DNA from: Pseudomonas sp. B21-028 | Lineage (GTDB): Bacteria > Pseudomonadota > Gammaproteobacteria > Pseudomonadales > Pseudomonadaceae | Length of the DNA stretch: 64,000 nucleotides | Direction: 5' to 3' | Assembly (NCBI RefSeq): GCF_024749045.1 | Contig: NZ_CP087184.1 | Span: 2,232,001-2,296,000, forward strand | Shown here: positions 4,828 through 63,697 of the stretch, in pieces | Layout: every line of letters starts with the position of its first letter | Numbering within the stretch: the first letter of the stretch is position 1 | Made by a program: the position numbers and the translations under genes | Notes under the pieces: generated by a model | Databases searched by the model: none | What the model was told of the DNA's origin: nothing | What the model saw: the letters and a program-made list of their open reading frames with translations, nothing else

Positions 4828-4916
4828 TGTGGGAGCGAGCCTGCTCGCGATAGCGGTGTGTCCGTCGACGAAGGTGTTGCCTGGTTGCCGCCATTGCGAG
4901 CAGGCTCGCTCCCGCA
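4828..4916. repeat. Type A REPIN (inverted REP pair)
   Basis: GTGGGAGCGAGCCTGCTCGC followed by GATAGCGG, then the reverse complement ending GGCTCGCTCCCGCAG about 90 bp on. It lies between the divergent LysR and MFS starts. Translating through it gives a false N-terminal extension of the MFS gene. Confidence 0.9.
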
Positions 4917-50403: not shown

Positions 50404-51792
50404 ATGGACTACTCACGACGCCAGTGGCTGCAGCGGGCCGGTGTGGTTGCCGCGTTCACGGCGCTCGGCGGCCAGGGCGCCGTGGCCGACCTGATGCGTG
50501 CGCCGCGCTTGATCCCGTGGCGCAACTGGTCCGGTGCACAGAGTTGCCTGCCGGCCGCGCGCCTGGCGCCCAAAGACCTCGACGAACTGGTGCAAGTGAT
50601 AACCCGCGCCGAAGGGCGGATCCGTCCGGTGGGTTCCGGTCATTCCTTCAGCGCCTTAGTGCCCACCGATGGAACCTTGCTGTCCCTGAGTTTTTTCAAC
50701 GGCCTGTTGGATCATGACGCGGCCAGCCTGCAAGCCGAGTTCGGCGGCGGCACGCCGATGTCGCGCATGGGCCCGGCGCTCAAAGCCATCGGCCAGGCAT
50801 TGCCGAACATGGCCGACGTGGACTATCAGACCCTGGCCGGCGCCATCGCCACCTCGACCCACGGCACCGGCAAAGCCTTCGGCTCGTATGCCTCCCAAGT
50901 CGTCGGCCTGCAACTGGTGACGGCCAGCGGCGAGGTGCTCGATTGTGATGCCAACCGCCATCCCGAAGTGTTCAAGGCGGGGCGTGTGTCGCTCGGAGCG
51001 CTGGGGTTGGTGACCCGTGTGCGCTTGCAGAACCGCGCCGCCTATCGGTTGCGCGAGCGCCAATGGGTGGCGAAAACCGAAGAGTTGCTGGAAGACGTGG
51101 AAACCAATACCCGGGACAACCAGCACTGGGAAATGCAGGTGGTCACCCACTCCGACTATGCGTTGTCGATCACCCTGAACGAAACCACCGATCCGGCCAC
51201 GCCGCCCATCAGTCCCGAGGAGGAGGGCGGCAACGAATTTGTCACCCTGATCGAGAAACTCGACAAGTACGGCAGCGACTTTCCGGCGATCCGTCGATCG
51301 TTGCTCAACACCCTGCGACTGGTGGCCGACTTCGACGACCGGGTCGGTGATTCCCATGACATCTACGCCAACGCCCGCACCGTGCGTTTCAATGAAATGG
51401 AGTATTCCGTGCCGGCCGAGCAGGGGCCGGCGTGCCTGCGGGAGATCCTCGCGCTGATCCGCGACAAGAACCTGCGGAGCTGGTTTCCCATCGAATATCG
51501 CTACGTGAAGGCCGACGACATCGCCTTGAGCATGTTCGAAGGACGGGACTGTTGTTCGATCTCCGTCCACCAGCATTACCAGATGGACCACCACAATTTC
51601 TTCGCCGCCATCGAGCCGATCTTCTGGAAATACCAGGGCCGACCGCACTGGGGGAAATTGCACTCGCTGAACGCCAGGGCACTGCAGGCACTGTACCCGC
51701 GCTGGAACGAATTCACCCAGGTGCGCCAGGCCCTGGATCCCTCTGGGAAGTTTCTGAACGGGCATCTTTCAACGATCCTGGGGGTGAGCTGA
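50404..51792 (+). CDS. Tat-exported FAD-linked lactone/sugar oxidase
   Basis: 462 residues. Twin-arginine signal S-R-R-Q-W-L-Q at residues 4-10 followed by a hydrophobic run to about 30. The PCMH-type FAD domain has GSGHSFS; His80 is the candidate for covalent flavin. The C-terminal ALO domain has PHWGKLHSL and ends PSGKFLNGHLSTILGVS, matching aldonolactone/alditol oxidases. ATG 50404 is preferred over 50398 for ribosome spacing. Its electrons could go to the neighbouring cytochrome c5 protein. Confidence 0.9.
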   Translation: MDYSRRQWLQRAGVVAAFTALGGQGAVADLMRAPRLIPWRNWSGAQSCLPAARLAPKDLDELVQVITRAEGRIRPVGSGHSFSALVPTDGTLLSLSFFNGLLDHDAASLQAEFGGGTPMSRMGPALKAIGQALPNMADVDYQTLAGAIATSTHGTGKAFGSYASQVVGLQLVTASGEVLDCDANRHPEVFKAGRVSLGALGLVTRVRLQNRAAYRLRERQWVAKTEELLEDVETNTRDNQHWEMQVVTHSDYALSITLNETTDPATPPISPEEEGGNEFVTLIEKLDKYGSDFPAIRRSLLNTLRLVADFDDRVGDSHDIYANARTVRFNEMEYSVPAEQGPACLREILALIRDKNLRSWFPIEYRYVKADDIALSMFEGRDCCSISVHQHYQMDHHNFFAAIEPIFWKYQGRPHWGKLHSLNARALQALYPRWNEFTQVRQALDPSGKFLNGHLSTILGVS

Positions 51793-53074
51793 TGGCTTTC
51801 AATCGTCGTGGTTTGCTGAAGGGCACGTTGGGCGCCGGGGTGTTGCTGGCCGGTGTCGGGGCCTGGCTGCGGCCGGAGGACCGGGGCGGACCATACAGTG
51901 ATTATTTTCGTCAATTGAACCGCGAGCTCAAGGCCCACGGCCCCATGCGCCCGGTGATGCTGATCGACCTGGATCGCCTCGATCACAACATCGATGTAGT
52001 GAAGGCTTCGGTCCGGCGCGCGGGCAAGCAGTTGCGACTGGTGGAGAAGTCCCTGCCTTCGCCCCAGTTGCTGAAATACATCGGCGAGCGGGCCGAGACC
52101 CGGCGGTTGATGTCGTTTCACCAGCCGTTTCTCAACTACGATGCAATGCAGTTCCCCGATGCCGATATCCTGCTGGGCAAACCGCTGCCGGTGCGTTCCG
52201 CCGAGCTGTTCTATCAGCTTCACAAAGGGCCGTTCGACCCGTCGCGTCAGTTGCAGTGGCTGCTGGATACCCCGAGCGTGTCCAGCAATACCGGGCCCTG
52301 GCCCAAGGGCTGGGCACGTGCATGCGAGTCAACATCGAACTGGACGTCGGCTTGCACCGGGGCGGAGTGGCCGACGACGCGGCTCTAGACGCGATGCTCA
52401 AGCTGATTCGTGCCCATCCGGCGCAACTGGAGTTCGCCGGTTTCATGGGCTATGACCCGTTCGTGGGCATGGGCGTGCCGGAGCTGTTGGCAAGCCCTGA
52501 AACACTGCTGGCGCGGGTCATGGCGATCTACACCGCACGGGTGGATTTCGTCCGGTTGCACTACCCCGACCTGTGGCGTCCGGGCCTGACCCTCAACACC
52601 GCGGGCAGCCCCAGTTATCGTCTGCATGAACAGGAACGCCTGAGTAGCGAAGTGTCGGTGGGCACGGCCATGCTCAAGCCCAGTCATTACGATTTGCCTT
52701 CCTTGAGCGAGCATGTGCCGGCGGCCTACATTGCGACCCCGGTGCTCAAGCGTACCGGCGCGGTGAACATTCCGGCGCTGGACGACAAGTCGCGGATTTT
52801 TTCCTGGTGGGATGTGAACCAGCGCGAGACGTTCTTCCTCTACGGTGGCAACTGGATGGCCGATTTCGAATCGCCACCCGGCCTGAAGAGCAACAGTCTC
52901 TATGGCCGCAGCTCCAACCAGGAAATGGCCAACGGCTCCGAGGCGGTGGGGCTGGCGGTGGAGGACCAAGTGTTCCTGAGGCCGACCCAGGTCGAGTCGG
53001 TGCTGTTGCAGTTCGGTGATCTGCTGGCGGTGCGCGGGGGGCGGATTGTCGAGACGTGGCCGGTCTATGGTTGA
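51792..53074 (+). pseudogene. Tat-exported alanine-racemase-fold/DSD1-like protein, frameshifted
   Basis: The start codon overlaps the upstream stop (ATG at 51792). The first frame encodes a twin-Arg signal (RRGLLKGTLGAGVLLAGVGA), a fold-III PLP barrel start (PVMLIDLDRLDHNIDVVK) and continues to LLDTP near 52270. It then shifts: the continuation ERVQQYRALAQGLGTCMRVN lies in the +1-shifted frame and runs to 53074. One base appears to be missing in ACCCCGAGCG at 52268-52277. Restoring it gives about 427 residues. Either a real pseudogene or a sequencing error. Confidence 0.85.
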
Positions 53075-55510: not shown

Positions 55511-55528
55511 GTCATAACTCGTTATGAC
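55511..55528. promoter_or_regulatory. Perfect palindrome, candidate GntR operator
   Basis: GTCATAAC TC GTTATGAC has 8-bp arms with a two-base core. It lies just upstream of the GntR/UTRA gene start at 55543 and would sit on or next to its promoter. The HutC subfamily binds similar short palindromes. An adjacent GTGATCC may be part of the promoter. Confidence 0.65.
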
Positions 55529-55542
55529 AAGTGATCCAGCCC

Positions 55543-56295
55543 ATGTCCGACAATGTACTTGCCCTTAGCAGCGTTCCGCTGCACACCCAACTGCGTGACG
55601 TGTTGCGCGCCCGCATCCTCGACGGTGAATACCCCCAGGGCAGCCAGATGCCTTCGGAAAGCGAGCTCGGTACGCTGTTTCGCGTGAGCCGTATCACCGT
55701 GCGCCAGGCCCTCGGCGATCTGCAGAAGGAAGGGCTGATTTTCAAGATCCACGGCAAAGGCACCTTCGTCGCCAAGCCCAAGACGTTCCAGAACGTCAGC
55801 ACTCTCCAGGGCCTGGCCGAATCCATGACCGGGCGCGGCTTCGAGGTGATCAACCGCTTGCGCAGTTTCAAATTCATTCCGGCGGATAAACAAGTGGCCG
55901 AGCGCCTGGGCTTGGTCGAAGGGGAGCCGGTGGCGCAGATCAAGCGGGTGCGACTGATCAATCGCGAGCCGGTGTCCCTGGAAATCACTTACCTGCCCAA
56001 GGCCCTTGGCGAACGCCTGGAAAAAGCCGACCTGGTGACCCGCGACATTTTCCTGATCCTGGAAAACGACTGTGCCTTGACCCTGGGGCACGCCGACCTT
56101 GCCATCGATGCGGTGCTGGCTGACAGCGATTTGACCCAGGCCCTGGAGGTCGAGCCGGGATCGCCGATCATGCGCATCGAGCGCCTGACCCACGACGCCG
56201 ATGGCCGGCCATTGGACTTCGAACACCTCTATTACCGCGGCGATGCTTTCCAGTACCGCTTGCGGATCGACCGGCAAAAAGGGACACAAGCATGA
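55543..56295 (+). CDS. GntR/UTRA (HutC-subfamily) regulator
   Basis: 250 residues: winged helix 10-75 (PSESELGTLFRVSRITVRQALG) and UTRA domain from about 90 to 245 (VAQIKRVRLINREPVSLEITYLP and IMRIERLTHDADGRPL). Met 55543 is favoured; GTG 55531 is in frame. Its last four bases overlap the start of the flavoprotein gene (ATGA), so it is the first gene of the operon it probably controls. Ligand unknown. Confidence 0.9.
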   Translation: MSDNVLALSSVPLHTQLRDVLRARILDGEYPQGSQMPSESELGTLFRVSRITVRQALGDLQKEGLIFKIHGKGTFVAKPKTFQNVSTLQGLAESMTGRGFEVINRLRSFKFIPADKQVAERLGLVEGEPVAQIKRVRLINREPVSLEITYLPKALGERLEKADLVTRDIFLILENDCALTLGHADLAIDAVLADSDLTQALEVEPGSPIMRIERLTHDADGRPLDFEHLYYRGDAFQYRLRIDRQKGTQA

Positions 56296-58037
56296 CCGAC
56301 AGCGCTGTGACTGGAAGCATTTTGGAACAGGAATACGACATCGTCGTCATCGGCGGCGGCACGGCCGGACCCATGGCGGCGATCAAGGCCAAAGAGCGCA
56401 ACCGCGATTTGCGCGTGCTGCTGGTGGACAAGGCCAACGTCAAACGCAGCGGCGCCATCAGCATGGGCATGGATGGCTTGAACAACGCGATCATTCCCGG
56501 CCATTCGACCCCCGAGCAGTACACCAAGGAAATCACCATCGCCAACGACGGCATCGTCAACCAGGCGGCGGTGTACGCCTATGCGACCCACAGTTTCGAA
56601 ACCCTCTCGCAACTGGACCGCTGGGGCGTGAAGTTCGAGAAGGACGAAACCGGCGACTATGCGGTGAAGAAGGTCCATCACATGGGCGCCTATGTGTTGC
56701 CGATGCCGGAAGGGCACGACATCAAGAAAGTCCTCTATCGCCAGTTGAAGCGGGCGCGGGTGAGTATCACCAATCGGCTGGTCTGCACCCGCTTACTGAC
56801 GGATGCCGAGGGTGCGGTGAACGGCGTCATGGGCTTCGATTGCCGCACCGCCGACTTCCATGTGATCAGGGCCAAGGCGGTCATTTTGTGCTGCGGTGCG
56901 GCGGGTCGCCTGGGCTTGCCGAGTTCCGGCTACCTGATGGGCACTTATGAGAACCCCACCAATGCCGGGGACGGCTATGCCATGGCCTACCATGCCGGTG
57001 CCGAGCTGGCGAACCTGGAATGCTTCCAGATCAACCCGTTGATCAAGGATTACAACGGCCCGGCCTGCGCCTACGTCACGGGCCCCCTGGGTGGCTACAC
57101 CGCCAACAACAAGGGCGAGCGCTTCATCGAGTGCGACTACTGGAGCGGGCAGATGATGTGGGAGTTCCACCAGGAACTCGAGGGCGGCAATGGCCCGGTA
57201 TTCCTCAAGCTCGATCACCTGGCCGAGGAAACCATCCAGAACATCGAGGACATCCTGCACAGCAACGAGCGGCCCAGCCGCGGCCAGTTCCACGCCAACC
57301 GCGGCACCGACTACCGCACGCAGATGGTGGAAATGCACATCTCCGAAATCGGCTTCTGCAGCGGCCATTCGGCCTCGGGCGTGTGGGTGAACGAGCGGGC
57401 CGAGACGTCGGTCAAGGGCCTGTACTCGGCCGGCGACATGGCGGCGGTGCCGCACAACTACATGCTCGGGGCGTTCACCTACGGCTGGTTTGCCGGCCAC
57501 AACGCGGCGGATTTCGTGGCCGGAAGGGATTTTTCGGCGCTGGATGCCGCTCAGATCGAACGGGAAAAGGCCCGCGTCTACGCACCGCTTACGCGCGAAC
57601 ACGGCCTGCCGCCAGCCCAGGTGGAATACAAGCTGCGGCGCTTCGTCAACGATTACCTGCAACCGCCGAAGGTCACTAAAAAGATGCAGATCGGCCTGCA
57701 ACGCTTCAGCGATATCCAGCGCGACCTGGATCAGATCAAGGCCCACAACGCTCACGAGCTGATGCGCGCCATGGAGGTCAGTGTGATCCGCGACTGTGCC
57801 GAAATGGCCGCCCGGGCCTCGCTGTTTCGTGCCGAAAGCCGTTGGGGGCTTTACCACTATCGGGTCGATCACCCGCAACGCAACGACAGTGAGTGGTTTT
57901 GCCATTGTCACCTGAAGAAGGGCGACGACGGCGTGATGACTTCCTTCAAGAAAGCGGTCGAGCCCTACATCATCGCCCTCGATGCCGACGAACTGCAGGC
58001 TTACGAGCGGCTGCGGGTCGGCGCCGACGCGGCGTGA
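56292..58037 (+). CDS. AprA/FrdA-like FAD flavoprotein
   Basis: 581 residues. FAD-binding GGGTAGPMAAIKAKE at the N-terminus, an insert domain, then the second FAD loop LYSAGDMAAV, and a C-terminal helical domain. The arrangement resembles adenylylsulfate reductase alpha and fumarate reductase, but it is shorter than AprA (about 620-660). The small ferredoxin follows within 24 bases, as aprB follows aprA. No membrane anchor or heme gene is nearby, so it is not a respiratory succinate dehydrogenase. Substrate unknown. Confidence 0.88.
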   Translation: MTDSAVTGSILEQEYDIVVIGGGTAGPMAAIKAKERNRDLRVLLVDKANVKRSGAISMGMDGLNNAIIPGHSTPEQYTKEITIANDGIVNQAAVYAYATHSFETLSQLDRWGVKFEKDETGDYAVKKVHHMGAYVLPMPEGHDIKKVLYRQLKRARVSITNRLVCTRLLTDAEGAVNGVMGFDCRTADFHVIRAKAVILCCGAAGRLGLPSSGYLMGTYENPTNAGDGYAMAYHAGAELANLECFQINPLIKDYNGPACAYVTGPLGGYTANNKGERFIECDYWSGQMMWEFHQELEGGNGPVFLKLDHLAEETIQNIEDILHSNERPSRGQFHANRGTDYRTQMVEMHISEIGFCSGHSASGVWVNERAETSVKGLYSAGDMAAVPHNYMLGAFTYGWFAGHNAADFVAGRDFSALDAAQIEREKARVYAPLTREHGLPPAQVEYKLRRFVNDYLQPPKVTKKMQIGLQRFSDIQRDLDQIKAHNAHELMRAMEVSVIRDCAEMAARASLFRAESRWGLYHYRVDHPQRNDSEWFCHCHLKKGDDGVMTSFKKAVEPYIIALDADELQAYERLRVGADAA

Positions 58038-58061
58038 ACCGTCCAATCAGAGAGAACGCCC

Positions 58062-58307
58062 ATGGCTTATCAACCCCAGGAAATCTTCTTCCGCTCCAAT
58101 GCCCCCGTCACCGTGGACGAGGACAAGTGCATCGCCCACAAGGGTTGCACCGTATGTGTCGATGTCTGCCCCATGGACCTGCTGGCGATCAACCCGGCCA
58201 CCCAGAAGGCCTACATGGCATTCGACGAATGCTGGTACTGCATGCCGTGCGAAAAGGACTGCCCGACTGGTGCCGTGAAAGTGGAGATTCCTTACTTACT
58301 GCGCTGA
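58062..58307 (+). CDS. Ferredoxin with two [4Fe-4S] sites
   Basis: 81 residues. First site C-I-A-H-K-G-C-T-V-C-V-D-V-C-P (C-x5-C-x2-C-x3-C, an unusual first spacing). Second site C-W-Y-C-M-P-C-E-K-D-C-P. It corresponds to AprB in position but lacks AprB's extra C-terminal tail. Likely electron-transfer partner of the flavoprotein. Confidence 0.9.
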   Translation: MAYQPQEIFFRSNAPVTVDEDKCIAHKGCTVCVDVCPMDLLAINPATQKAYMAFDECWYCMPCEKDCPTGAVKVEIPYLLR

Positions 58308-58320
58308 CATCAGAACCGCT

Positions 58321-58416
58321 ATCGCGAGCAGGCTCGCTCCCACATGGGATGTGTGGTGTACGCCGAATCTGTGAACGCTGAAGAAAACTGTGGGAGCGAG
58401 CCTGCTCGCGATGGGG
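58321..58416. repeat. Type A REPIN inside the operon
   Basis: Reverse-order arms CGCGAGCAGGCTCGCTCCCA and TGTGGGAGCGAGCCTGCTCG between the ferredoxin stop and the binding-protein gene. It may lower transcription or stabilise the upstream mRNA. Confidence 0.9.
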
Positions 58417-58543
58417 CCAGCCCAGCCACTACAAAGCCATCCGGCCACCCCCGGACGCTTGATCCAAAAACACCCCTCGTTTCCTACCGTGCACAGATCA
58501 CGGCGGAGACGAACCTCCTATACATGATTCGAGGGGAATCCCC

Positions 58544-59947
58544 ATGTTGCGTGCAACGCTGGCCGGTCTGGTACTGGCTTCATTGAGCTTGTCTGCCCAG
58601 GCAGAAACCATCCGTGTCGCCATCGGCACCCAGGACACCACCATCAACTGCGCCGCCGGCGGGTTGTTGATCCGTGAGTTGGGCCTGCTGGACAAATACT
58701 TGCCCCATGACGGCGCCTATAAAGACGCCCGGTACGATATCCAGTGGAAGAACTTCACCAGCGGTGCGCCCCTGACCAACGAGATGGTCGCCGGCAAACT
58801 CGACTTCGGTGCCATGGCCGACTTCCCCGGCGCATTCAACGGCGTGGCATTCGAAACCGCCGGCAAGCACAGCCTGTTCATCAGCGTGCTGTCGGGCAGC
58901 ATCCAGGGCAGCGGCAATGGCATCGTCGTGCCCAGCGCGTCCGGGGTACAGTCCCTGGCCGAACTGAAGGGCAAGACGATCTCCGTGCCATTTGCGTCCA
59001 CTGCCCACGGCATGTTGCTGCGTGCCGTGGCGGCCCAGGGCTGGGACCCGCTCAAGGATGTGAACATCATCGCCCAACCGCCGGAAGTCGCCGGCTCGGC
59101 TTTGCAGGCCGGCAAGATCGACGCCCACGCCGACTTCGTGCCGTTCGCCGAACTGTTCCCCAGCCGGGGTTTCGCCCGCAAGATCTACGACGGCGCCCAG
59201 GCCGGCGCGCCGACGTTCCATGGGGCGTTGGTGGACCAGGCCTACGCCAGGAAATACCCGGAAATTGTCGTCGCATATTTGCGCGCAACCCTCGAGGCCA
59301 ACCAGTTGCTGGCCGCAGAGCCGGAGAAGTACAGCGAGCTGATCGCCCAGGTTACCGGGGTCGATGCCGAGGTCAATTATCTGTTCCACGGGCCGCTGGG
59401 CGTGCAGACCCGTGACCTGACCTGGAAGCCGGAATACCGGCAAGCCGTCGGCACCGCCATCGACACCCTCAAGCTGCTGAAAAAAGCCGATCGCGGCCTG
59501 GACCTCAATACGTTCATCGATGACCAGTACATCCGTGCCGCATTCAAGGCCTCGAACCTGGATTACGACGCACAACTGGGTCACTACGCCCGGACACCGT
59601 TGAGCGACGTCGATGCTTCGACCGGGCAGGCGATTACCGACTTCAGCCGCGTGGCCGAGATCTGGGTGCGTGGCGAGCCGAAAGTACGTCACTACGCCTC
59701 GGCGCAATCGGCTTTCGCCGCCCTGGCGAGCCTCAAGCAGGAAGGCAAGGGCATCCGTGCGGTCTATGCCCAGGCCAGCGACAGCGGGATCAAGTTGCTG
59801 GCCGAGCAGGCGTGGTTCGCCAGTGATGCCCAGGGCCGGCTCAGTGCGTTCCTGCTCAAGGGCCAGGCCGAGCAGTTCGCCGTGCAGCAGGGCGGCAGGG
59901 TTCTGGATTTCAGCGAAGCCACGGCCCAAGCCGTAGCCACCCGATAA
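58544..59947 (+). CDS. ABC binding protein, NitT/TauT family, with C-terminal NosL-like domain
   Basis: 467 residues. Signal peptide 1-20 (VLASLSLSAQA), then an SsuA/NMT1-like fold with FGAMADFPGAFNG and DFVPFAELFPSRGF, to about 370. From 380 a second domain reads VRHYASAQSAFAALA, AWFASDAQGRLSAF and EQFAVQQGGRVLDFSEA. It follows the NosL pattern (AYYV... ATFADEQDA ... GGRVLRFEE) but lacks the metal-binding Cys/Met pair. AGGGGAA precedes ATG 58544. Confidence 0.85.
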   Translation: MLRATLAGLVLASLSLSAQAETIRVAIGTQDTTINCAAGGLLIRELGLLDKYLPHDGAYKDARYDIQWKNFTSGAPLTNEMVAGKLDFGAMADFPGAFNGVAFETAGKHSLFISVLSGSIQGSGNGIVVPSASGVQSLAELKGKTISVPFASTAHGMLLRAVAAQGWDPLKDVNIIAQPPEVAGSALQAGKIDAHADFVPFAELFPSRGFARKIYDGAQAGAPTFHGALVDQAYARKYPEIVVAYLRATLEANQLLAAEPEKYSELIAQVTGVDAEVNYLFHGPLGVQTRDLTWKPEYRQAVGTAIDTLKLLKKADRGLDLNTFIDDQYIRAAFKASNLDYDAQLGHYARTPLSDVDASTGQAITDFSRVAEIWVRGEPKVRHYASAQSAFAALASLKQEGKGIRAVYAQASDSGIKLLAEQAWFASDAQGRLSAFLLKGQAEQFAVQQGGRVLDFSEATAQAVATR

Positions 59948-59961
59948 CCTGCCAAATGACC

Positions 59962-60050
59962 TGTGGGAGCGAGCCTGCTCGCGATGGCGTCAGATCAGTT
60001 GGAATTGATGTGACAGGGACACCGCCATCGCGAGCAGGCTCGCTCCCACA
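59962..60050. repeat. Type A REPIN inside the operon
   Basis: Two intact arms in the gap between the binding protein and permease genes. Translating it would extend the permease falsely (CGSEPARD ... SRAGSLPQG), so the permease start is placed after it. Confidence 0.9.
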
Positions 60051-60075
60051 GGGATCTCGGTCGAGAGGAAGCATT

Positions 60076-60858
60076 GTGAATCGATCTTACCTGCGCTGGC
60101 TCCCGCGAGCCGCCTCGTTACTGCTCTGCCTGCTGTTCTGGCAACTCGCCGCCAATGGCCACTGGGATCTTGGCCTGGTGACCTTCGCCAACGTCCCGAC
60201 GCCACTGGCCGTGATCCAGGCCGCGCTTGGGCTGGGGGAATCGGGCAATCTCGCCCGGCACCTGGGTAGCAGCCTGGGCCGGGTCTTTGCCGGTTATGGC
60301 GCGGCGGTGTTGATTGGTGTGGCCGTGGGGCTCGCCATCGGTCGTTCGAAATGGGCGGAAGACCTGCTGTTACCGCCGCTGGAAGTCCTGCGCCCGATCC
60401 CGGCCGTGGCCTGGATTCCCCTGGCAATCCTGATGTTTCCCTCGTCGGAACTGTCGATGGTGTTCATCACCTTCACCGGCGCGTTGTTTCCGATCCTGCT
60501 CAACACCGTGCATGGCGTCGAAGGCGTGGACCGGCGGCTGATCGCGTCGGCCAAAAGCCTGGGGGCCGGGCGCCGGGCGATCCTGCAGGAGGTGATCCTG
60601 CCGGGTGCGGCACCGAGCATCATCACCGGCCTGGCCATCGGCATGGGCACGTCCTGGTTCTGCCTGGTGACGGCGGAAATGATCGCCGGCCAGTACGGCA
60701 TCGGCTACTACACCTGGGCTTCCTACACCGTGCAGAACTACGCCGACATCGTGGTCGGCATGCTGCTCATCGGTGTGCTGGGCATGGGCAGCAGTGTGTT
60801 GATCAAGCGCCTGGGCGGGTTGTTCACGCCTTGGCATCGACCCCGAGGAAAAGCCTGA
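60076..60858 (+). CDS. ABC permease, NitT/TauT type
   Basis: 260 residues from GTG 60076 (GAGAGGAAG upstream). About six helices with the permease EAA-type loop SAKSLGAGRRAILQEVILPGAAPSI preceding TGLAIGMGTSWFCLVTAEMIAG. Stop overlaps the ATPase start by one base. The inner-membrane channel of the importer. Confidence 0.93.
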   Translation: MNRSYLRWLPRAASLLLCLLFWQLAANGHWDLGLVTFANVPTPLAVIQAALGLGESGNLARHLGSSLGRVFAGYGAAVLIGVAVGLAIGRSKWAEDLLLPPLEVLRPIPAVAWIPLAILMFPSSELSMVFITFTGALFPILLNTVHGVEGVDRRLIASAKSLGAGRRAILQEVILPGAAPSIITGLAIGMGTSWFCLVTAEMIAGQYGIGYYTWASYTVQNYADIVVGMLLIGVLGMGSSVLIKRLGGLFTPWHRPRGKA

Positions 60859-61703
60859 TGAGTGTCATGCAAACGCCCGAAGGGCGGATCGATATCCGCC
60901 AGTTGTCCATTGTCCTTGGCACGGGAGCCCAGGCGTTCGAAGCCGTCCAGGGTCTCGATTGCCAGCTCGAAGCGGGCCAGTTCGTCTGTGTCCTGGGACC
61001 GTCCGGCTGCGGAAAATCCACCTTGCTCGGCGCCTTGGCCGGGCATCTGCAACCGCGTGCCGGTACCCTGAATGTCGACGGTGTGCCGGTGTCCGGTCCG
61101 TCGCCCCAGCGGGGCATGGTGTTCCAGCAACACACGTTGTTTCCCTGGCGCAGTGTGCGCGACAACGTCGCTTTCGGCCTGAAGATGCGCGGTCTCGGCA
61201 AGGCCGAGCGATACCGCGCCGCCGATGAAATCCTGGCGCTGGTGGGGCTGGAAGGCTTTGCCGGGCATTGGCCGGATCAGCTCTCCGGGGGGATGCAGCA
61301 ACGGGTGGAAATCGCCCGGGTGCTGGTCAATCGCCCGCGGCTGCTGCTGATGGACGAACCCTTCGGCGCGTTGGATGCCCTGACCCGGTTGCGCATGCAG
61401 GAACTGCTCTTGGATATCTGGACGCGCATCCGCACCACCGTGGTGTTCGTCACCCATGACATCGATGAGGCGTTGTTCCTGGCCGACCGCTTGCTGGTGA
61501 TGAGTCCGCGCCCCGGCCGGATCATCGAGGACCTGCGGCTGGATTTTGCCCGGCCTCGCACGACGGAGCTGGTGACCCATCCCGAGTTCACCCGTTTGAA
61601 ACGCCACTGCCTCGAGTTGCTGCGCCATGAAGAGGGCCGGCAATTGCCGCGTCTCAATCCCCTCGGGCTTCCTGAAACCTCCTTGCCGCGATTTGCCTTA
61701 TGA
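60858..61703 (+). CDS. ABC ATPase, NitT/TauT type
   Basis: 281 residues. Walker A GPSGCGKST, Q-loop MVFQQHTLFPW, signature LSGGMQQRVEIAR, Walker B LLLMDEPFGALD, switch His in VTHDIDEA. It lacks the CBS or TOBE extension of other importers. GAGGAAAAG precedes ATG 60858. Stop overlaps the HEAT gene by four bases. Confidence 0.95.
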   Translation: MSVMQTPEGRIDIRQLSIVLGTGAQAFEAVQGLDCQLEAGQFVCVLGPSGCGKSTLLGALAGHLQPRAGTLNVDGVPVSGPSPQRGMVFQQHTLFPWRSVRDNVAFGLKMRGLGKAERYRAADEILALVGLEGFAGHWPDQLSGGMQQRVEIARVLVNRPRLLLMDEPFGALDALTRLRMQELLLDIWTRIRTTVVFVTHDIDEALFLADRLLVMSPRPGRIIEDLRLDFARPRTTELVTHPEFTRLKRHCLELLRHEEGRQLPRLNPLGLPETSLPRFAL

Positions 61704-62662
61704 CCTCTTTATTCGAAAGCACCGACAACGACGATATTCTCCTCCTGCAACCGCGGCTGATTGACGACGATCCCGGTGTGCGCCGTATTGCCTTGATTGA
61801 ACTGGCTGATCTTGAGGAGCCCGAAGGCCTGTCGTGGCTGGTGGATCGCCTGGGTCGGGATTCCAGTGCCGAGGTGCGGGCCGAAGCTGCGCGCCTGCTT
61901 GAGGCCTGGGAAGATGCGGCGGTGGTCGAGGCCTTGTGCCGGGCCCTGACCGATCCGTCTCCAACCGTACAGAGCGCTGCCGCACAGAGCCTGAGCCTGC
62001 TCAAGAGCGAGGCGGCGGGGAGGGTGATCCTGCCCTGGGTCGCCCATGGGGATGTCAGCGTGCGGGTCGCCGCGTTCAGGGCCTTGCGCGAGTTGCGCCT
62101 GGTGGACGCAGCACCGGTTGCGATCGCGGCCCTGGCCGATAGCGATGCCGGCGTGCGCCGCGAGGCCGTCGGGGTGCTCGGTTGGCTCAAGCGCCTCGAC
62201 GCCTTGCCGGCCCTGGCAAGGCTTGCCAGTGACGATCCGGACAGCGAAGTGCGCCGGGCGGCCACCGGCGCCCTTGGCCTGGCTTCGGACCCACAGGTCT
62301 TGCCGGCGCTGTGCCGGGCGTTGCGCGACCCGTTCTGGTCGGTGCGCGAAGAGGCGGCCACCACTTTGGGCAAGGTCGGCCACGGCGAGGCCGGCCCGGC
62401 CCTGATCGATGCGCTGGCTGACGATTATTGGCAAGTGCGCCTGCGGGCCACCCGCAGCCTTGGCCGCTTGCGCTACGCCCCAGCGTTGCAGTCCTTGATC
62501 GATACCCTGGGGCATCCCATCAGCAACCTGCGCAAGGAGGCGGCCCTGGCGTTGGGGGAGTTGCATGATCCAGGCGCCATTGCGGCCTTGCAGGCTGCCC
62601 AGGACGATGGCGACCCCGAAGTGCGCAAAGCCGTGCGCATTGCCCTGGAGCAGTTGCGATGA
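61700..62662 (+). CDS. HEAT-repeat protein
   Basis: 320 residues made of about eight or nine 31-residue alpha-alpha repeats, e.g. LIDDDPGVRRIALIELADL, SDDPDSEVRRAATGALGLA and GDPEVRKAVRIALEQLR (PBS-lyase type HEAT). No catalytic residues visible. It overlaps the ATPase and DUF971 genes with ATGA junctions. HEAT proteins of this kind often serve as lyases, scaffolds or Fe-S/cofactor maturation partners; the specific role is unknown. Confidence 0.88.
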   Translation: MTSLFESTDNDDILLLQPRLIDDDPGVRRIALIELADLEEPEGLSWLVDRLGRDSSAEVRAEAARLLEAWEDAAVVEALCRALTDPSPTVQSAAAQSLSLLKSEAAGRVILPWVAHGDVSVRVAAFRALRELRLVDAAPVAIAALADSDAGVRREAVGVLGWLKRLDALPALARLASDDPDSEVRRAATGALGLASDPQVLPALCRALRDPFWSVREEAATTLGKVGHGEAGPALIDALADDYWQVRLRATRSLGRLRYAPALQSLIDTLGHPISNLRKEAALALGELHDPGAIAALQAAQDDGDPEVRKAVRIALEQLR

Positions 62663-63036
62663 ATCCGCTGGCGATTGGCAATTCCCAAGGCACGGGACAA
62701 TTGCGCTTGAATTGGCCCGATGGTCGCGAACAGCGACTGGACCACGCCGAACTGCGCCGCCAGTGCCCATGCTCCCAGTGCCGGGCGTTTCGCCTGCAAG
62801 GGCTGGCGGTCCTGGTGGATTCGCGGATTCGGGTGGTTGAAGTCAATGCCCAGGGGTATGGGGTCCAACTGGTCTTCAGTGATGGGCATGAGCGCGGGAT
62901 TTATCCGTGGGCTTACCTGGCTGGACTGAACACTGAGCTCCCACAGGGTATCTGGATGGATGCAGTTTCATTGAACACCTTCGGAAACTGTGGGAGCGAG
63001 CCTGCTCGCGATAGCGACGACACTGCCGGAATGTGA
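62659..63036 (+). CDS. DUF971 protein with REP-encoded C-terminus
   Basis: 125 residues. The DUF971 fold (related to the N-terminal domain of gamma-butyrobetaine hydroxylase) runs to about residue 92, with zinc-type cysteines R-Q-C-P-C-S-Q-C-R and HERGIYPWAYLAGL. The last 16 residues, NCGSEPARDSDDTAGM, are translated type A REP DNA. Start overlaps the HEAT stop (ATGA). Fe-S or Zn handling is possible but unproven. Confidence 0.85.
   Translation: MNPLAIGNSQGTGQLRLNWPDGREQRLDHAELRRQCPCSQCRAFRLQGLAVLVDSRIRVVEVNAQGYGVQLVFSDGHERGIYPWAYLAGLNTELPQGIWMDAVSLNTFGNCGSEPARDSDDTAGM
62989..63017. repeat. Single type A REP arm within a coding 3' end
   Basis: TGTGGGAGCGAGCCTGCTCG followed by CGATAGCG. A decayed mate, GAGCTCCCACAGGG, lies at 62937-62950, also inside the DUF971 frame. 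Confidence 0.88.
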
Positions 63037-63070: not shown

Positions 63071-63088
63071 GGAGTACAAATGTACTCC
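63071..63088. promoter_or_regulatory. LexA2 operator overlapping the lexA2 start
   Basis: GGAGTACA AA TGTACTCC is a perfect palindrome that contains the ribosome site (AGGAG) and the ATG of lexA2 at 63080. It includes GTAC-N4-GTAC, close to the P. putida LexA2 site, which I recall as GTAC-N4-GTGC. Position predicts autorepression. Confidence 0.75.
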
Positions 63089-63697
63089 ATGACGACTCTC
63101 ACACCCCGCCGCGCCGCCATCCTGACCTTCATCCGCGAACGCATCGCCGAGCAGGGTCAGCCTCCAAGCCTCGCTGAAATCAGCGAGGCGTTCGGTTTCG
63201 CCTCCCGCAGCGTGGCGCGCAAGCATGTGCTGGCGTTGACCGAAGCCGGTTTTATCGAAGTCAATCCGCACCAGGCCCGGGGCATCCGCTTGCTGAACCA
63301 GCCGCCGCGTCCCGAGCTGCTCGACGTGCCGGTGCTGGGGCGAGTAGCCGCCGGCCGGCCGATCGGCGCCGATGCCGAGGTCCACGACCGCCTGATGCTG
63401 GACCCGGCGATTTTCACCAGGGCGCCGGACTATCTGCTGCGGGTCCAGGGTGACTCGATGATCGGCGACGGCATCCTCGACGGCGACCTGGTGGGTGTCC
63501 AGCGCACGCCCCAGGCCTCGAACGGACAAATCGTGGTGGCGCGGCTCGACGGTGAAGTCACCATCAAGCGCTTCGAGCGCGTCGGCGAGCGGGTGCGCTT
63601 GTTGCCTCGCAATCCGGCCTATCAGCCGATCATCGTCGAGGCCGACCAGGACCTGGCGATAGAAGGGGTGTTCTGTGGCCTGTTGAGGCAAGGCTGA
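63080..63697 (+). CDS. lexA2: LexA2 repressor
   Basis: Second LexA of Pseudomonas, repressor of the imuA-imuB-dnaE2 cassette. 205 residues. HTH-type N-terminus 10-68 (SLAEISEAFGFASRSVARKHV), cleavage site Ala91-Gly92 in GRVAAG, and catalytic Ser126 (GDSM) and Lys163 (VTIKRF). Self-cleavage with RecA relieves repression. ATG 63080 has GGAG upstream; an ATG at 63089 is also in frame. The stop shares a base with the imuA start. Confidence 0.95.
   Translation: MYSMTTLTPRRAAILTFIRERIAEQGQPPSLAEISEAFGFASRSVARKHVLALTEAGFIEVNPHQARGIRLLNQPPRPELLDVPVLGRVAAGRPIGADAEVHDRLMLDPAIFTRAPDYLLRVQGDSMIGDGILDGDLVGVQRTPQASNGQIVVARLDGEVTIKRFERVGERVRLLPRNPAYQPIIVEADQDLAIEGVFCGLLRQG

Follow-up and report, generated by a model that had tools for sequence, protein, structure and literature searches.

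A conserved flavoprotein-ferredoxin operon with a sulfonate-type importer in Pseudomonas and other bacteria, most likely serving sulfur metabolism

Results

We examined a window of 64,000 nucleotides from Pseudomonas sp. B21-028 (bases 2,232,001 to 2,296,000 of the single 6.49-Mb contig NZ_CP087184.1, assembly GCF_024749045.1), focusing on eight plus-strand genes that span window positions 55531-63036. In order, these encode a GntR/UTRA regulator, a flavoprotein resembling AprA of adenosine 5'-phosphosulfate (APS) reductase, a small ferredoxin, the binding protein, permease and ATPase of an ATP-binding cassette (ABC) importer, a HEAT-repeat protein, and a DUF971 protein. The eight genes are kept together beyond chance, probably as one conserved operon, and sequence comparisons indicate that they encode a widespread, apparently undescribed enzyme system, most likely for sulfur. 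We give about an even chance to a more specific proposal, that the operon is an organosulfur-scavenging reductase system releasing sulfite from a non-nucleotide substrate by AprAB-like flavin chemistry.

A first-pass annotation, made from the letters of this stretch, had proposed a single operon, and the gene neighbourhoods of related loci agree. Eighty relatives were taken from GTDB genomes, five of which were too short (contig ends), leaving 75 to be counted; a gene was scored as present if it lay on the same strand within ~8 kb at >40% identity. The GntR, flavoprotein, ferredoxin, and HEAT genes are kept in all 75, DUF971 in 73, and the importer in 65; the full set of eight is found in 64 of the 75. 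These relatives are mostly Pseudomonas and hence are not independent. The core gene set nevertheless extends to further classes and phyla. All 19 chromosomal regions have flavoprotein, ferredoxin, HEAT, and DUF971 together, and all 18 annotated plasmid clusters have the first three (fused in one). In the window itself, all eight open reading frames (ORFs) were found on the plus strand with the families first assigned to them. The tight packing that had been noted is also there, with ATGA overlaps joining GntR to the flavoprotein (56292), the ATPase to HEAT (61700) and HEAT to DUF971 (62659), and with one base common to the permease stop (60856-60858) and the ATPase ATG (60858).

The flavoprotein cluster is an accessory, patchy trait. 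Its flavoprotein gene is present in 15 of 57 genomes and, across the phylum, in 21 of the 398 genomes sampled (source genome included in both counts), and it occurs on plasmid records from rhizobia, methylotrophs, Acidithiobacillus, Acinetobacter, cyanobacteria, and actinobacteria. The type of regulator differs among clusters (GntR, Crp/Fnr, or LysR), with LysR annotated only in three cyanobacterial clusters. In one Pseudomonas copy (G033:C1:3546560-3548289; L017, L019) the flavoprotein gene is broken into two frames.

The flavoprotein (581 residues; 56292-58037, plus strand) has FAD_binding_2 and Succ_DH_flav_C domains for binding flavin adenine dinucleotide (FAD). It is a clear member of NCBIfam NF006131/PRK08275, scoring 1136.9 bits against a curated cut-off of 587, and falls below the cut-off of the AprA model TIGR02061 (189.9 vs 641.75 bits). 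The closest solved chain is the alpha subunit of 3'-phosphoadenosine 5'-phosphosulfate (PAPS) reductase from Methanothermococcus thermolithotrophicus (8a8o; profile score 282 bits), followed by AprA (205 bits). In a tree of 11 family members with seven AprA, six AsfA-like proteins, SdhA, NadB, and one further protein from Cupriavidus metallidurans CH34, the family forms its own clade apart from AprA, the AsfA-like proteins, SdhA, and NadB (split support 0.996). A grouping with a known enzyme, which could have overturned the initial interpretation, was thus not seen in the tree compared.

We compared pocket residues in 114 family members (15 from the window and plasmids, 19 chromosomal, and 80 from genome contigs, mostly Pseudomonas) with those in 30 AprA, carrying over Archaeoglobus fulgidus AprA numbering through the flavoprotein-AprA alignment. 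The AlphaFold model of the flavoprotein was unusable (mean predicted local distance difference test, pLDDT, 42.8), and the pocket was assessed from alignments only. Asn64, Tyr219, Leu250, His359, and His388 are invariant in all 114. Asn64 and His359 correspond to AprA Asn74 and His398, which lie at the flavin N5/sulfite site and are Asn and His in 30/30 AprA; the equivalents of Asn74, Lys267, Asp268, His398, and His446 are identical in the family and in AprA. Six other positions are switched without exception (114/114 vs 30/30 AprA): Trp144 to Tyr, Gln145 to Val, Trp234 to Tyr, Arg265 to Leu, Gly274 to Cys, and Phe448 to Tyr. In AprA, the first four of these line the substrate channel. At the nucleotide-side positions of AprA the family has Leu250, Tyr219, Tyr134, Val135, and Cys259. 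As aligned, the sulfite side of the pocket is retained and the nucleotide side rebuilt, which makes APS or PAPS an improbable substrate.

The position of the histidine that binds FAD covalently in succinate dehydrogenase and fumarate reductase (SDH/FRD) is Gly54 in the flavoprotein family, and is His in the SdhA-like protein encoded elsewhere in this genome (at 4.75 Mb). No Arg is present at the flavoprotein sites aligned with what we take to be the catalytic arginines of SdhA, and none of the eight genes encodes SdhB, C, D, or an anchor. The separate clade and the residue switches support the early assignment of an AprA-like flavoprotein-ferredoxin pair engaged in neither APS reduction nor succinate oxidation, and indicate that the flavoprotein is neither an APS reductase nor a succinate dehydrogenase. 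By the same comparisons, it is probably not AsfA.

The adjacent gene (58062-58307, plus strand) encodes an 81-residue ferredoxin with two [4Fe-4S] clusters, resembling the beta subunit AprB. Its eight cysteines and Trp58, which lies beside Cys57, are invariant in 11/11 aligned ferredoxins. Matches include AprB (3gyx_B) and the PAPS reductase beta subunit (8a8o_C) among many others, and polyferredoxins score higher. By position, Trp58 may be the electron-relay tryptophan of AprB; the residue roles are taken from two papers (PMC2211403; PMC10322725). Possible electron donors are encoded near some relatives: of 19 chromosomal regions of 20 kb, 9 contain a gene resembling ferredoxin-NADP reductase and 4 contain FdxA. 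One such reductase-like gene that we scanned scored 142.2 bits, below the cut-off of 390. Among plasmid clusters, one has both ferredoxin-NADP reductase and FdxA, and another has FdxA.

The importer appears to be of the sulfonate type. Its periplasmic binding protein (58544-59947, plus strand) is of the NMT1/SsuA/TauA type with a C-terminal NosL-like domain. In sequence-profile searches, the nearest solved proteins are TauA (6ssy), SsuA (2x26), 3e4r, and 3uif, with sulfonate binders taking the top four of 14 places. A Foldseek search with the predicted structure, a weak model (mean pLDDT 56.6), likewise places sulfonate binders in the top eight of its list. The permease (60076-60858, plus strand; BPD_transp_1 4.4e-23) is followed by an ATPase of the TauB/SsuB/NrtD type (60858-61703, plus strand; ABC_tran 2e-32), for which the best NCBIfam match is the taurine ATPase (265.9 bits, below the cut-off of 357). 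The imported ligand would presumably be a small sulfo-anion. The first-pass annotation had proposed uptake of a small anion or an organosulfur or nitrogen compound; the TauA/SsuA-like binding protein makes the organosulfur option likely.

The NosL-like domain (residues 360-465 of the binding protein; model block means of pLDDT 68-92) is detected in 13/14 relatives at E<=1, including cyanobacteria, with a best value of 1.3e-6. The match in the window's own protein scores 18.4 bits, below the Pfam cut-off of 24, and 7og7 is a matching solved structure. No Cys, Met, or His is invariant in this domain among the aligned relatives, and we therefore did not adopt a copper role for it.

The last two genes encode a 320-residue HEAT-repeat protein (61700-62662, plus strand; HEAT_2 3.5e-57) and a DUF971 protein (PF06155, now named GBBH-like_N; 62659-63036, plus strand; 6.7e-21). 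Within PRK13800, a family of flavoprotein-HEAT fusions 898 positions long, the HEAT protein aligns to positions 654-896. In Tsukamurella the two are fused in a PRK13800 member (1568 bits; HEAT_2 4e-27), and because of this fusion the HEAT protein is probably attached to the flavoprotein enzyme. No DUF971 is annotated in four cyanobacterial clusters, which have an Mrp/NBP35-type ATPase with an Fe-S-assembly domain downstream of HEAT. Proteins of the Mrp type carry Fe-S clusters, and in plants HCF101 combines Mrp with DUF971 in one protein. An Mrp/NBP35 protein in place of DUF971 fits a role in Fe-S maturation or loading. A maturation role had initially been suggested for both proteins; the cyanobacterial arrangement is consistent with this for DUF971, and the HEAT protein now looks more like a part of the enzyme.

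Genes related to sulfite lie close to some of the clusters. Six of 24 YeiH genes (18/21 genomes) lie no more than 10 kb from the flavoprotein, where 0.09 would be expected, and YeiH adjoins 3/18 plasmid clusters, all cyanobacterial, where one is annotated as a putative sulfate exporter. In Salmonella, yeiH is required for sulfite resistance (PMC12880088). TauE/SafE/TSUP genes are found near 6/18 plasmid clusters; we weighted these below YeiH because the plasmid link is not seen within 10 kb on chromosomes among the matches listed. Two PF01507 (PAPS_reduct) proteins are encoded elsewhere in the genome, and thus the usual route to sulfite is probably present. Other genes may give hints to the substrate. 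In Nostoc edaphicum plasmid pNe_5 (L112, 8971-17000), genes for two HAD hydrolases, a methyltransferase, a GNAT protein, and a VOC protein sit between the flavoprotein and the ferredoxin, and further copies (L116, L157) likewise have a GNAT or amidase gene in their vicinity.

Upstream of the operon is a perfect 18-bp palindrome, GTCATAAC-TC-GTTATGAC (55511-55528), which is a candidate operator for the HutC-type GntR/UTRA regulator (55531-56295, plus strand; Pfam UTRA 9e-40, GntR 1.1e-18). At <=2 mismatches no second such site occurs in the 6.49-Mb genome, and this operon is therefore probably the regulator's sole target. At <=4 mismatches the palindrome is found in 75/80 upstream windows, compared with 24 matches in 1.62 Mb of flanking DNA. 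The five windows in which it was not found (L090, L093, L096-L098) are all from Burkholderiaceae, several other Burkholderiaceae copies have it with 3-4 mismatches, and it was not found in 3/5 plasmid clusters checked; hence, as a conserved element, it is firm only for Pseudomonas-type copies. Because the palindrome abuts the GTG at 55531, the real start of the regulator may be the ATG at 55543.

Repetitive extragenic palindromic (REP) elements interrupt the operon. The element TGTGGGAGCGAGCCTGCTCGCGAT has 23 sites in the window at <=2 mismatches (0 expected by chance), mostly as inverted pairs ~65-70 bp apart, for example at 4828-4916. One pair (REPIN; 58321-58412) occupies the gap between ferredoxin and binding protein, with exact copies at 58321-58344 (minus) and 58389-58412 (plus). 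A second (59962-60050) occupies the gap between binding protein and permease, with exact copies at 59962-59985 (plus) and 60027-60050 (minus), and a single exact match lies at the end of the DUF971 ORF (62989-63012, plus). These placements account for an inflated permease ORF and an odd DUF971 tail: the permease start proposed by the ORF finder (59956) runs through the REP pair, so that REP DNA is being translated at the front of that ORF and, likewise, at the C-terminal end of the DUF971 ORF. The permease more likely begins at the GTG at 60076, downstream of GAGAGGAAG. The REP elements could split the transcript of the eight genes.

Outside the operon, a racemase/aldolase-like gene, recognized by eye, is seemingly split across two frames near 52256 (51432-52388 and 52256-53074), which may be a pseudogene or a sequence error. 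Immediately downstream of the operon are a lexA-like gene (63086-63697) and then an imuA-type gene, both also identified by eye and with no relation to the operon.

Discussion

From the comparisons above we infer what class of substrate is used, in which direction the reaction runs, what it yields, and what HEAT and DUF971 do. In the self-contained pathway that we propose, the sulfonate-type ABC importer would take up a small sulfo-anion, and the flavoprotein and 81-residue ferredoxin would form a complex like AprAB or PAPS reductase. Electrons would pass from ferredoxin-NADP reductase and FdxA, or host equivalents, through the two [4Fe-4S] clusters and Trp58 to FAD. The reduced FAD could then attack the sulfur of the sulfo-group as in APS reductase, via the Asn64/His359 pair, and the adduct would collapse to sulfite and R-H, R-OH, or R-NH2. 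Sulfite would go into cysteine synthesis, with YeiH or TauE/SafE relieving excess in some lineages. The HEAT protein is predicted to bind the flavoprotein, and DUF971 (Mrp/NBP35 in cyanobacteria) to serve Fe-S loading. The GntR protein may repress the operon via the palindrome, with the substrate or a product as effector. Reduction or oxidation had both been envisaged at first; the reductive direction with sulfite as product now appears more likely, because ferredoxin-NADP reductase, FdxA, yeiH, or TauE/SafE are encoded nearby in part of the relatives.

Several observations weigh against release of sulfite by such a system. Five of the six chromosomal YeiH cases come from one genus, so that independent events are few, and no TauE was found within 10 kb among the matches listed for 21 chromosomes. 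No ferredoxin-NADP reductase, FdxA, or YeiH gene was found near the operon in the window or in seven regions from the Pseudomonas family and related groups (L149-L155). In 10/75 loci no importer was found within 8 kb on the operon's strand, and the binding protein does not reach the NCBIfam cut-offs of SsuA (125.3/163.5) and TauA (93.7/304.25). Amidases and acetyltransferases surround some relatives and may indicate nitrogen compounds. With Arg265 replaced, the enzyme could have lost its sulfur chemistry altogether. Finally, attack of flavin N5 on a C-sulfonate needs a carbon leaving group, for which we know of no precedent.

Sulfite release from organic sulfur could take two narrower forms. 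One, which we put forward tentatively, is an O2-independent reductive desulfonase: electrons from reduced nicotinamide adenine dinucleotide phosphate (NADPH) would reach FAD, N5 would take the sulfo group from an imported sulfonate, and the N5-sulfite adduct would give R-H and sulfite, with HEAT as third subunit. The other, a doubtful subdivision of the same proposal, would restrict the enzyme to S-O, S-N, or S-S bonds (as in a sulfate ester, sulfamate, S-sulfocysteine, or thiosulfate) and not C-sulfonates. In its chemistry, APS reduction is best matched by a leaving group based on O, N, or S, and Asn64, His359, and His388 are retained; the importer, on the other hand, is most like C-sulfonate importers.

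It is also conceivable, if unlikely, that the flavoprotein and ferredoxin are an electron-transfer module only and feed a separate C-S-cleaving oxygenase, as proposed for AsfAB in Pseudomonas putida S-313. The combination of a reductase, a ferredoxin, and a sulfonate-type importer follows the same logic as AsfAB, and asfA transposon mutants lose aromatic-sulfonate use (PMC4267179). A TauD- or luciferase-like monooxygenase (LLM)-type oxygenase gene lies near the cluster in 10/35 regions and 3/18 plasmid stretches; TauD/LLM queries, however, found no oxygenase near the other 25/35 regions. Further, the substrate-side Asn and His of a catalytic flavoenzyme are invariant, and the flavoprotein is only 23-29% identical to the two AsfA candidates on C. 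metallidurans chromosome 2.

Equally improbable in our estimate is a dehydrogenase, reductase, or oxidase acting on a non-sulfur substrate (a small carboxylate, an amine, or an N-containing anion) taken up by the NitT/TauT-type importer. SdhA, FrdA, and NadB belong to the same flavoprotein superfamily, the Foldseek listing includes relatives of the NMT1 type whose ligands are bicarbonate, pyrimidines, or pyrroloquinoline quinone (PQQ), and a few loci have amidase or GNAT neighbours. Against this, PAPS and APS reductases are the best-scoring solved relatives, the binding protein is nearest to sulfonate binders, and some neighbours handle sulfite. It is very unlikely that the enzyme assimilates sulfate as a second kind of APS or PAPS reductase, even with the assimilatory PAPS reductase of M. 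thermolithotrophicus as closest solved relative, given the Arg265, Trp234, Trp144, and Gln145 replacements in 114/114 sequences, the low AprA-model score, an importer that is not of the sulfate type, the two PF01507 proteins elsewhere in the genome, and the (incomplete) gene tables of 18 plasmid stretches, which list neither ATP sulfurylase nor APS kinase.

The database label "fumarate reductase/succinate dehydrogenase flavoprotein subunit" hides a widespread enzyme. In open-licence literature we found neither a tested function for PRK08275 (NF006131) or PRK13800 (NF010374) nor a description of the family, its NCBIfam names, or the gene combination, and the accessible text of PMC9694294, PMC13352529, and PMC8557817 holds nothing on the flavoprotein family. 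Soil organic sulfur consists mainly of sulfonates and sulfate esters (PMC4267179); if sulfite is freed from organic sulfur by this system, it would be an added route in soil sulfur cycling. A reductive desulfonase, if true, would represent an APS-reductase-related class of C-S cleavage, encoded on chromosomes and plasmids in Proteobacteria, Cyanobacteria, and Actinobacteria. The flavoprotein would also illustrate cleanly how the pocket of a flavoenzyme can change over from a nucleotide to a different substrate, here probably a sulfo compound.

Like AprBA and the M. thermolithotrophicus PAPS reductase (8a8o), the family combines an FAD-containing alpha subunit with a two-[4Fe-4S] beta subunit that has a Trp beside its second cluster motif. 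Unlike them, it has a beta subunit of only 75-81 residues, and a sulfonate-type importer, HEAT, and DUF971 or Mrp as partners. Among the 398 genomes, those with the flavoprotein and those with AprA do not overlap. The binding protein, permease, and ATPase are of the same type as those of SsuABC and TauABC, and differ in the NosL-like domain on the binding protein and in scores under the SsuA and TauA cut-offs. With the SDH/FRD flavoprotein the family shares the FAD-binding superfamily, and differs in Gly54 and in a cluster that has no SdhB/C/D.

AsfAB has a similar gene content. AsfA and AsfB are a reductase and a ferredoxin needed for arylsulfonate use (PMC4267179), and C. metallidurans is reported to carry asfRAB on chromosome 2 (PMC2864759). 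Orthology with AsfAB was our first idea, and it was weakened by the low identity of the two chromosome 2 relatives (L108 and L109), the only ones found there at E<=1e-5. Of these, L109 (CH34 megaplasmid, 924.5-934.5 kb) would be the likelier AsfAB because of its flavoprotein-ferredoxin pair and nearby ABC genes, namely a sulfonate-type ATPase and permease, with L108 as the other candidate. The other neighbour of L109 is a fatty-acid desaturase; no LysR was recognized beside it, and its 10-kb stretch has no significant HEAT or DUF971 match. Bradyrhizobium, Azospirillum, and cyanobacteria have members of the L109 family that are 62-68% identical to it, and none of the 120 matches listed in the L109 homology search bears the name AsfA. 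In the L109 type, unlike the family in the window, the positions of Asn64 and His359 are not conserved. Asf has the LysR-type regulator AsfR, whereas clusters of the window type have GntR in 75/75 relatives. In this comparison with the two CH34 candidates, the window family is thus probably an analogue of AsfAB and not the same gene, sharing with it a flavoprotein, a ferredoxin, ABC genes, and a presumed part in sulfur scavenging, and its compact operon makes the role of AsfAB-type reductase-ferredoxin pairs testable.

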